20,565 bases of DNA, from positions 1 to 20,565 of IMG/VR virus record IMGVR_UViG_3300001533_002736; one strand, given 5' to 3'. Every line of letters begins with the position of its first letter. The first letter of the stretch is position 1. The notes under the pieces are model-generated. The model searched no databases and was not told the origin of the DNA. It saw only the letters and a program-made list of their open reading frames with translations. Source of the stretch: a virus. This document shows positions 7,307 through 19,118 of the stretch, in pieces. Position numbers and translations under genes: made by a program.

Positions 7307-7337
7307 CTCTTCTCTCCTTTTCCTTTACTATAACTTA

Positions 7338-7366
7338 ATTATAATCGATTATTCAGATTATGTCAA
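7338..7366 (-). promoter_or_regulatory. Promoter P2, perfect sigma-70 consensus
   Basis: On the minus strand TTGACA (7361-7366) and TATAAT (7338-7343) are 17 bases apart. The 22 bases from the -35 box outward (7361-7382) match those of P1 (264-285) with a single difference, so the two promoters share the upstream region as well as the boxes. It drives the 94-residue gene and the repair unit. Confidence 0.9.
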
Positions 7367-7390
7367 GTAGAAAATGAAAAAGTTAAAAAA

Positions 7391-7513
7391 TGAAGTAGAC
7401 GGGATTCGAACCCGCACGATGCTGTGCACTTTCCCTTCAACAGGTACCCATTTACCACCGTCGTCACTAACACACCACATGGATTGCATGTCTACCAATT
7501 CCATCACTACTTC
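7391..7513 (-). tRNA. Oversized class II tRNA-like gene (Leu-like D arm), anticodon unclear
   Basis: The ends are clearly tRNA: acceptor GAAGTAG/CTACTTC, T arm GCGGG-TTCGAAT-CCCGT, discriminator A, no encoded CCA, and a D arm with GAATTGGTAGAC as in leucine tRNAs. But 71 bases lie between position 26 and the T arm where a class II tRNA would have about 30. I cannot form a 5-bp anticodon stem from the expected position 27. The extra part shares the AGCATCGT block with the tRNA-like gene next to it. It may contain a short insertion, be degenerate, or be a tRNA-like RNA that does not decode. Confidence 0.6.
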
Positions 7514-7516
7514 ATA

Positions 7517-7626
7517 AGCCTCCGGAGGGAATTGAACCCCCGACCTTCCCTCAGTACGATGCTTGGCCTTTGCATTCATACTGATTGTCTAACTGACTGG
7601 ATGCTCTACCACTAAGCTACAGAGGC
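7517..7626 (-). tRNA. Oversized tRNA-like gene, anticodon unclear, with long hairpin insert
   Basis: Acceptor GCCTCTG/CGGAGGC, D arm GCTTAGTGGTAGAGC, T arm GGGGG-TTCAATT-CCCTC and an AGGTC variable segment are typical. Position 27 to 48 spans 60 bases where 22 are usual. The extra part contains a hairpin at 7551-7584 with 12 pairs (TCAGTA/TACTGA, then TG/CG, then ATGC/GCAT after one bulged A) and a 9-base loop. Without it a standard anticodon stem still does not form; only TCC/GGA pair. It lies 5 bases after the nuclease stop region and 3 bases before the next tRNA-like gene, so the pair is probably processed from the recA transcript. Confidence 0.6.
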
Positions 7627-7631
7627 AAATA

Positions 7632-8015
7632 CTAATCGAAACTTTTAGTTTTCAAATGATCATTTAAGAGAGATTGAAAAAAGTCCCAATCAACTATCAC
7701 TATCGGTTTTCTAAAAGCCTTTCTTTTGTGGACAATCACCCACTCTGTTCCTTCCTTCTTATTACGCTTAGCCTGAGCAACAGTAGTCTCGATCCCAAGT
7801 TTCTCAGTAGACTTACATTCAATCGAAAGAGGAAGAAGCCTAAACGCCTTCCCCCTCAATATCACATCTACCCCAGACTGGCCCATAGGACGAGACTGAA
7901 TCTCCATCTCATCTTCCGGACCCCACGGAATCGCAGTTAAACCAGACAGCTTTTCAGCTACCCATTTTTGAAGATTTCTCGCTTTACTTTTTCTTGACGC
8001 TACACTAATAGACAT
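7632..8015 (-). CDS. PD-(D/E)XK endonuclease, resolvase-like
   Basis: A 127-residue protein. The core is GVDVILRG followed by LSIECKSTE, giving the D...ExK catalytic set of PD-(D/E)XK nucleases, and the basic N terminus SRKSKARNLQKWVAEKL fits phage proteins annotated as Holliday junction resolvase-like nucleases of this fold. Its likely job is to cut branched recombination intermediates made by RecA. The ATG follows the recA stop directly, with GGGGAGG before it, so it is translated from the same message. Substrate choice is inferred from context. Confidence 0.75.
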   Translation of the reverse strand: MSISVASRKSKARNLQKWVAEKLSGLTAIPWGPEDEMEIQSRPMGQSGVDVILRGKAFRLLPLSIECKSTEKLGIETTVAQAKRNKKEGTEWVIVHKRKAFRKPIVIVDWDFFQSLLNDHLKTKSFD

Positions 8016-9911
8016 TTATCCCTCCCCTTCATCACCTATTTCCTTTCTTATTATTTTCTCAATCTTAACAGCTTTCTCAGGATTTTCTTCCAACCAAACA
8101 GAAGCATTATCAGCACCCTGACCCATACGCTCATCACTAAAAGAATACCAACTACCACTCTTATTGATTATCTCTTTTCTCACAGCGGTATCAAGTAAAC
8201 TTCTATACTTATCTACCCCTTTTCCGAAAATAATAGAGATCTCTATCTTCCTGAATGGAGGAGCTACTTTATTCTTCACTACTTTTACTCTTACACGATT
8301 CCCAATAGACTCCTGCCCTCTATCTATACTCTCTATTCTTCTAATCTCCAAACGAATTGACGTATAGAACTTTAGAGCCCTTCCACCTGTAGTAGTCTCT
8401 GGATTACCAAACATAACTCCAATCTTCATACGAATCTGATTGATAAAAATCAAAACTGTATTTGTCTTTTTGATAATCCCATTCAGCTTTCTCAAAGCCT
8501 GACTCATCAATCTAGCTTGCAACCCCATATGGCTATCACCCATCTCACCATCTATCTCTGCTTGAGGAGTAAGGGCTGCAACCGAATCAACAACAATTAT
8601 ATCTACTCCTCCAGATCTTATTAAAGACTCAGCTATCTCAAGAGCCTGTTCCCCACTATCAGGTTGAGAAATCCACAACTCCTCCATCTTTACTCCAAGA
8701 TTCCTTGCATACTGTGGATCAAGAGCATGTTCAGCATCAATAAATGCTGCAACTCCTCCAGCCTTCTGAGCCTCTGCTACCGCATGAATAGCCAATGTAG
8801 TCTTTCCAGAATTATGCACAACAAACCCATTTGCTACAAAATTATTATATGGAACAAAACACTTAATATCATAAGTATCTCTCCACCCAACTGTAACAAT
8901 ACTCTCAATAAAATCCTCATTAGCAACAAACCTCAAATTATTATGATTTTCAAGTGAATGGTGTCTATAATGATCAGATTTACTTATTACTTGGAGATTC
9001 TCAAGAACATCATTTTTACAATTACCATCTACATGATGAACATCCATATCTTCTGGAACCGTCCACAAATCACCAATAGGTTTATCTGAGTTCAACAAAT
9101 CCACATAATCTTTATAAGAATATCCATTTTTGTCAGCTTCAACTAACAAATGAGATTTCCTCACTCTAAACCTTATATAGCTATACTTCTTGTTTCCTCT
9201 TCTATCATTGGCAGTAACTATCTTCTTTCTTCCTCCAGGATGTCTTTTCAAAAATACTTCAGAGTACCTAATACTTTTATGCTTCTTTACATTGCATTTG
9301 TTATTATGAACAAAGACGTTTGAACCTACAAACAAATCACCAAGAGGAACATACTTCTCTCCATCAAAAAACTTATGATCCTTAGTACAAACAATCTCCT
9401 TTCCACCAACAGACCTAACCAAATAACATTGTTTCCTTCCAGTAAAAACCACATTAGCAATCTTATTGGAAAAAACACAATTTTCTTCATTTATAGAGGA
9501 CACATAAAAATCACTATCTTCTGTAACTTTCCTCTGGTAAAATCCTTTTCCTCCTCTTTTTATTCCATGAAACCTTTCATAAAGCCTCTTTATTGTTCCT
9601 CCTTTATGATTCTGTATTTTCCCATTCTTGCTCCAAATAGAATATTGAATATGAGTATCTTTATCCAAACAAGATTCCGGACCATATATCTCAGTAATCC
9701 TTCCTCTTGGATATCCCCATACTCCAACAGCCTCATCTAACTGAATGTTCCCAGTGGAAATAACTGGGATATCCGGGAAAGCACCATCATCATACCTCAT
9801 GATGCTTCCTCTTCCAAACTTCTTTTCTATTTCCAAAGTAGCTGATTCAAGAGCCTTCCGTCTTTCCTCTGTTCTACTATTTTTTTCTTCTACTTCTTTT
9901 GCCTTACTCAA
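8016..9911 (-). CDS. recA: RecA recombinase precursor containing an intein
   Basis: 631 residues, of which 1-80 and 368-631 join to a 344-residue RecA of normal length. The N part has [15 protein letters not shown]; the C part resumes at SGKTTLAIH, so the mature Walker A is [20 protein letters not shown], Walker [13 protein letters not shown] and the L2-region [11 protein letters not shown] are intact. RecA coats ssDNA and catalyses strand exchange; the phage also encodes SSB and a UvsY-like mediator. The start codon is TTG (9909-9911) with AAGGGG 7 bases upstream; the in-frame codon set before it contains a TGA. Activity requires intein splicing, because ATP binding is broken until then. Confidence 0.97.
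8811..9671 (-). mobile_element. Intein with HNH homing endonuclease, inserted in the RecA P-loop
   Basis: Residues 81-367 of the precursor (287 residues). The first residue is Cys ([11 protein letters not shown], block A). Block B has CTKDHKFF with the conserved T-x-x-H. The C-terminal end shows [12 protein letters not shown] (block F) and FVVHN followed by Ser of the extein, all ligands needed for standard splicing. In between is an HNH domain (VHHVDGN at 291-297, N305, and SDHYRHH at 312-318) instead of the more common LAGLIDADG type. Both domains look complete, so splicing and homing may both still work. Confidence 0.95.
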
Positions 9912-13073: not shown

Positions 13074-13091
13074 CTTCTTCTCCTTATCATA

Positions 13092-13120
13092 AGTATATAA
13101 TAATATTCATATTGTATCAA
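13092..13120 (-). promoter_or_regulatory. Promoter P3
   Basis: On the minus strand TTGATA (13115-13120), a 17-base spacer and TATACT (13092-13097). It is one mismatch from consensus in each box, and shares TACTTGA and the following ACAAT with P1 and P4. It lies between the polymerase stop and the clamp loader start and gives a leader of only about 10-15 bases. Confidence 0.75.
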
Positions 13121-13134
13121 GTAAAAAAAATAAA

Positions 13135-19053: not shown

Positions 19054-19080
19054 TCCATCTCCCCTTATTAAGATACTTTA

Positions 19081-19109
19081 ATTATATTTCATTATTACTA
19101 TTGTGTCAA
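19081..19109 (-). promoter_or_regulatory. Promoter P4, perfect sigma-70 consensus
   Basis: On the minus strand TTGACA (19104-19109), 17 bases, TATAAT (19081-19086). It drives the replication unit from the 49-residue gene to the polymerase. It shares TACTTGACACAATA with P1. Confidence 0.9.
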
Positions 19110-19118
19110 GTAATAATT

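Follow-up and report, generated by a model that had tools for sequence, protein, structure and literature searches.

What does a phage tRNA gene encode that has kept its acceptor, D and T arms intact but lacks an anticodon arm? The question is raised by two genes that lie head to tail, tRNA2 upstream and tRNA1 downstream with a 3-nt spacer between them, in a 20.6-kb IMG/VR phage contig (the window, i.e., the whole stretch of 20,565 nucleotides analysed here). An initial annotation of the window had offered three explanations for the pair: tRNAs with introns, tRNA-like RNAs that do not decode, and decoys for the anticodon nucleases of phage defence.

Genomic setting of the tRNA-like genes

Among the products encoded by the contig are an intein-bearing RecA, a DNA polymerase of family A, a clamp loader, a helicase, a primase, SbcCD-like proteins and RadC, and this gene content identifies the contig as belonging to a phage of bacteria; judged by RecA and a sigma-70 promoter, the host looks bacterial. 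The RecA gene (window positions 8016-9911) is split by the intein, which carries an HNH endonuclease domain. It is followed by a nuclease-like gene (Table 1), and since the stop codon of the latter is only 5 nt before tRNA2, the tRNA pair is probably cotranscribed with the nuclease-like gene and recA. The promoter directly downstream of the pair probably serves the next operon. It is one copy of a sequence repeated in the window at about 240-300, 7337-7369, 13079-13123 and 19068-19112, whose other copies resemble promoters of this type.

A protein search with the nuclease-like gene returned 17 loci (L002-L018, 34-52% identity), and the tRNA pair is absent from all 17 of them. SbcC and PolA protein queries for close relatives gave none, and a DNA similarity search of phages and plasmids returned ordinary tRNA arms or nothing.

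Table 1. Coordinates of the tRNA-like genes, their parts and the flanking features in the window
Feature	Position	Strand	Basis and remarks
tRNA2	7626-7517 (110 nt)	minus	Rfam tRNA and our pattern scan; body nearest to phage tRNA-Thr
Foreign middle of tRNA2	7542-7601 (60 nt replacing about 22)	minus	sequence, Rfam, fold
12-pair hairpin UCAGUAUGAAUGC...GCAUCGUACUGA inside tRNA2	7551-7584	minus	9 bp plus 3-4 bp
Segment TGAATGCAAAGGCCAAGCATCGT of tRNA2	7556-7578	minus	resembles tRNA1 segment 7416-7439, p about 0.01
tRNA1	7513-7391 (123 nt)	minus	our pattern scan; D arm and 3' end common to phage tRNA-Leu(UAA)
Foreign middle of tRNA1	7416-7487 (72 nt)	minus	no significant fold
Segment TGAAGGGAAAGTGCACAGCATCGT of tRNA1	7416-7439	minus	resembles 7556-7578 of tRNA2
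Nuclease-like gene	7632-8015	minus	weak match to RusA-like Holliday-junction resolvases (phrog_244, E 1.6e-7)
Perfect sigma-70 promoter, TTGACA-N17-TATAAT	7338-7366	minus	directly downstream of the tRNA pair

Normal tRNA bodies without an anticodon arm

The bodies of the two genes are not chance products. Our pattern scan, which requires 7/7 acceptor pairs, D-arm features, a 5/5 T stem and a canonical T loop (TTCRANY), picked out exactly these two elements in the window, whereas 1.6 Mb of shuffled sequence gave no match. The description of the pair as two tandem tRNA-like genes with normal ends and intact acceptor, D and T arms is thus borne out; both also have G18G19 in the D loop. The body of tRNA2 is Thr-like and that of tRNA1 Leu(UAA)-like. 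The acceptor is GCCTCTG/CGGAGGC in tRNA2, which has U73, and GAAGTAG/CTACTTC in tRNA1, which has A73; D and T arms are present in both, the D arm of tRNA1 being TGATGGAATTGGTAGACAT, and CCA is encoded in neither. A comparison with 1,231 tRNAs of the fetched loci likewise placed tRNA1 closest to phage tRNA-Leu(UAA) and tRNA2 closest to tRNA-Thr. An IMG/VR scan with a short gap gave ordinary tRNA-Leu genes, which were used as templates: an ordinary phage tRNA-Leu(UAA) such as that of L423 resembles tRNA1 in its D arm and T-arm end but, unlike tRNA1, has a full anticodon arm and a variable arm. Standard tools recognised the genes in part. The only known family returned by the Rfam search was RF00005, which matches tRNA2 (48.7 bits, E 7e-8), although at a site for which the model provides 11 nt the gene has 49; tRNA1 fell under the cut-off, and ARAGORN run without introns called neither gene.

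Both genes thus have the 7-bp acceptor, the D arm and the 5-bp T arm with a TTCRANY loop of canonical bacterial and phage tRNAs and lack the canonical anticodon arm: between the D and T arms, neither gene has a 5-bp stem closing a 7-nt loop that contains U33. In-place arm scores agree with this, lying in the usual range of shuffled sequence (p = 0.89 for tRNA2 and 0.08 for tRNA1), so that the reported lack of a 5-bp anticodon stem holds for either gene. What may be left of the stem are the 3 bp UCC/GGA that bound the middle of tRNA2 and the 4 bp CAAT/GTTG in tRNA1. The surplus, given earlier as about 38 bases, is indeed about 38 nt in tRNA2 and, relative to a class II tRNA-Leu, about 37 nt in tRNA1. 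The 12-pair hairpin described in tRNA2 was found again, and the middle that contains it is more stable than its own shuffles (z -2.9, p 0.008); the middle of tRNA1 has no excess stability (z +1.0). The relatedness of the two inserts, also proposed from the start, stands in part. They are alike over 24 columns at about 79% (p about 0.01). This likeness is modest: when other inserts are paired at random, 1% of the pairs score as high. The stretch AGCATCGT that both inserts contain is weak evidence of kinship, because its copy in tRNA1, like the 3' end of the segment 7416-7439, aligns with the end of the variable arm in ordinary phage tRNA-Leu(UAA).

Excision tests and phage tRNAs with removable inserts

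If the extra sequences were introns, their removal should restore an arm. We removed every possible single segment from each gene and scored the rejoined arm against shuffles with a home-made score. No canonical arm was restored by any single excision, either in tRNA2 (best p 0.04-0.10) or in tRNA1 (p 0.53). The method is sensitive, since 27 of 74 other insert-bearing phage tRNAs, counted among the IMG/VR matches listed, gave restored arms that beat all 200 shuffles. ARAGORN with introns allowed, a check proposed with the initial annotation, did call tRNA2, as a tRNA-Ile(aat) with a 51-nt loop; the call is implausible and recovered no canonical arm.

These 74 tRNAs come from one IMG/VR scan and are the matches listed rather than a random sample. 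In one set of phage tRNAs (loci L142, L107, L119, L086, L081, L109, L110, L147, L132, L030/L034, L040, L044, L432 and others), inserts of 39-54 nt lie in the anticodon stem, and their removal leaves a perfect arm; in L142, for example, taking out 41 nt between positions 29 and 30 gives ACGGC-AUGAUAA-GCCGU. The identities restored are Ile, Thr, Asn, Lys and others. Many of the inserts are placed at 29/30 of the anticodon stem and consist of a hairpin followed by C[AT]GCAA, a core that is invariant in the 18 of 18 members aligned. One member is found in the cultured Aeromonas phage Ahp1_CNU-2021 (MT161459, 11731-11844), where it is annotated as tRNA-Pseudo, and similarity matches indicate similar DNA in the Aeromonas phages phiAS5, Aeh1 and PX29 and in Synechococcus phage B23. 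The window pair shares with these tRNAs an intact body and about 36-50 nt inserted beyond the third anticodon-stem pair; it has neither their core nor their perfect arms after removal, the sequences nearest to the core being ATGCAA in tRNA2 and CAGCAT in tRNA1.

Two further insert types were observed in phage tRNAs: CGCTTA..GCA followed by GTTCCTAT (L121, L088, L099, L169, L085, L104), and a long hairpin around CTTGT..ACCGA with TTATC at the end (L167, L171, L164). In L069 and L125, class I tRNA bodies have a long hairpin instead of the anticodon loop, and in L105, L058, L115 and L137 a second T-arm-like element within the insert recalls the possible tRNA-in-intron of Lak phages.

Leu-like phage genes without an anticodon arm

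A further IMG/VR scan with a Leu-type D arm gave at least 115 matches, again not a random sample, and among them at least 93 tRNA-Leu-like genes with hypervariable middles (loci within L177-L296). Acceptors with at least 6/7 pairs occur in 92 of the 115 matches listed, with 45 different acceptor sequences that each fit their partner; AGTCAGG recurs in 39 of these 92. Because the acceptor is paired 7/7 in 78 of the 115 matches listed (68%) versus 3.5% when arms are swapped, selection acts on the tRNA body, and the middle is hypervariable. A73 is found in 73% of the Leu-like matches listed, the middle measures 49-79 nt, the T stem has A51 in 87 of the 93 genes, and a canonical arm is in place in only 6 of the 93 (both counts among the matches listed). 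Class II excision gave p values that spread up to 1.0 and no general restoration of an arm, which argues against introns as a general feature of these genes. By a home-made score with a floor of 0.01, an H-type pseudoknot that stops about 2 nt short of the T stem can be formed by 28 of the 92 matches listed at p<=0.05, which is an excess, 15 of them being at the floor; in the related pair L225/L255 a U-A pair of one stem is changed to C-G on both sides. No general conserved neighbour gene was found for the set. When this pattern was sought in a collection with one genome for each cellular species, a paired acceptor was seen in only 18 of 116 matches, most of them being other things; genomes of cells contain the pattern far less often than phages do.

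tRNA1 is like these genes in its Leu-type D arm, class II size, A73, paired acceptor and foreign middle in place of an anticodon arm. We keep it out of the set because its T stem is GCGGG where 87 of the 93 genes have A51. By the same home-made score, tRNA1 shows no significant pseudoknot (p 0.38). tRNA2 differs from the Leu-type set by its class I body. The window pair fits the general anatomy but lacks the signatures of the removable-insert tRNAs and of the Leu-like genes alike.

Several elements were noted beside this set. In L217, L252 and L276 a gene like class II aminoacyl-tRNA synthetases (Pfam tRNA-synt_2) precedes a tRNA gene by about 850 nt. The tRNA combines a Leu-type D arm with the anticodon GUU, U37, an encoded GCCA and an extremely long variable arm, and together with the synthetase-like gene it is possibly a private synthetase-tRNA pair of these phages. 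A phage contig with a Leu-like anticodon-less gene, L293, also contains a Type-P3 twister ribozyme (2924-2993). The bacterial contigs L302 and L341 carry tRNA-Leu-like elements with a common GAAGGCGAAACACGTAT end that are possibly Y-RNA-like.

Possible origins and functions of the pair

The best explanation of the pair is, in our view, that the two genes specify stable tRNA-like RNAs that do not decode. It fits best among the three options proposed at the outset, given that there is neither an arm in place nor a clean excision, and we hold it tentatively, as a little short of an even chance. The two bodies retain the acceptor/T arm and the elbow, the parts of a tRNA that are recognised in RNase P cleavage, 3' processing and CCA addition and by elbow-binding proteins, and they lack the anticodon arm, which the ribosome reads. 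In the genes of the window, one Thr-like and one Leu-like, the anticodon arm past its first 3-4 bp would have been replaced by unrelated sequence. The pair would be transcribed as the last part of the recA/nuclease operon, and each transcript would be matured into a stable tRNA-like RNA by the host, through RNase P, 3' processing and CCA addition by its CCA-adding enzyme. An RNA of this kind would be unable to decode for want of an anticodon arm; it could instead mimic tRNA as a non-coding RNA and engage host proteins that bind the top half of tRNA, candidate targets being enzymes that process, modify or charge tRNAs, or defences that sense them. This reading is favoured by bodies that have every structural feature tested and did not arise by chance, by the failure to find an arm either in place or through a clean excision, and by the recurrence of the same anatomy in phages and its rarity in cellular genomes. 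It is weakened by the lack of the A51 signature and of a significant pseudoknot in tRNA1, by the absence of the pair from the loci related through the nuclease-like gene, and by an intron-like parse of tRNA2 that is suggestive.

According to that parse, tRNA2 would be a tRNA-Thr(CGU) interrupted between positions 29 and 30 by an intron of 36 nt, placed as in the removable-insert tRNAs, and tRNA1 would have an intron that is not recognised. The parse is in line with the Thr-like body and yields U33, the anticodon CGU and A37 in an imperfect arm, UCCGC-AUCGUACU-GAGGG; TGCAA stands 7 nt before the 3' junction, as it does in the cultured Aeromonas phage (L432), and Thr plus this motif is reached by 0.08% of shuffles (Thr alone by 0.85%). 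Dozens of phage tRNAs do bear removable inserts of such a type, and tRNA introns, described as 'enigmatic', have been published for Lak megaphages (PMC6784885). However, the parse was found post hoc, it reaches only 4/5 pairs and requires a G.A mismatch and an 8-nt loop, it competes with the 12-bp hairpin, and 19% of shuffles match it once the Thr and motif requirements are dropped. The C[AT]GCAA core is in neither middle, and the excision result for tRNA1 gives no hint of an intron. The proposal of intron-bearing tRNAs is unsupported for tRNA1 and only weakly possible for tRNA2, as a degraded tRNA-Thr(CGU); for the pair we consider it unlikely. The Lak tRNAs resemble the window pair in having a short extra sequence whose removal is unexplained, but are otherwise classifiable, whereas the window pair recovers no canonical arm; this comparison is with the Lak set as described in print. 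A group I intron was rejected, the extra sequence being only about 40-50 nt with no Rfam intron match; the catalytic core of such introns takes roughly 200 nt or more. A tmRNA was likewise discarded, with a T-arm match of only 15 nt and no call by ARAGORN.

Decay would explain the pair as tRNA genes that suffered an insertion or rearrangement in each anticodon arm and are unused and on the way out. The 3' end of tRNA1 does resemble a tRNA-Leu with a variable arm damaged by a 4-nt deletion, and the poor fold of its middle agrees with decay. Against this, both genes have kept the acceptor, D and T arms and lost the same arm, and the same outcome recurs across phages with paired acceptors, unlike random decay, so that we regard this account as quite unlikely. 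A tRNA scaffold presenting an antisense or guide segment in its middle is suggested by middles that are hypervariable among otherwise similar scaffolds, and tRNA1 has one 14-nt same-strand match in an ssb-like gene. That match is same-sense, and for this reason cannot base-pair with the ssb-like mRNA; moreover, the longest own-locus match in 82 Leu-like genes is 10.07 nt versus 9.94 nt in shuffled middles, with no excess, and guides are very improbable. We give as little credence to a decoy function against the host's anticodon nucleases. Such nucleases can be evaded or countered by phage tRNAs (PMC10264068), but the loop that these enzymes cleave is absent from both RNAs and no anticodon nuclease, defence or antidote gene was recognised in the window, which leaves this third suggestion of the initial annotation unsupported.

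Among known phage RNAs, T4 rnaC and rnaD (species 1 and 2 RNA) are stable RNAs of a phage tRNA cluster, and the T arm of rnaC is tRNA-like. Unlike the window pair, they have no paired acceptor plus D arm, and we rejected them as relatives on sequence as well as on tRNA-arm likeness. Predicted tRNA pseudogenes are listed in a published study of T4-like genomes, Aeh1 among them (PMC1524935). In the open literature we found no paper on anticodon-less phage tRNAs.

It is conceivable, if doubtful, that a broad and undescribed kind of phage non-coding RNA exists, with tRNA bodies, often of Leu type, that would be matured like tRNAs and act as mimics, their anticodon and variable arms being swapped for hypervariable, often pseudoknotted domains; the window pair, one of whose members is of Thr type, would then be divergent examples.

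Anticodon-less or interrupted tRNA genes are widespread in phages and largely undescribed: their bodies are paired across dozens of phages, and tRNA finders call them pseudogenes or overlook them. Since removable-insert tRNAs occur in a cultured Aeromonas phage, the mimic and the intron readings are both directly testable. If expressed, such genes would either supply mimics of tRNA that serve infection in some role other than decoding, or carry small introns that are removed by an unknown bacterial route.
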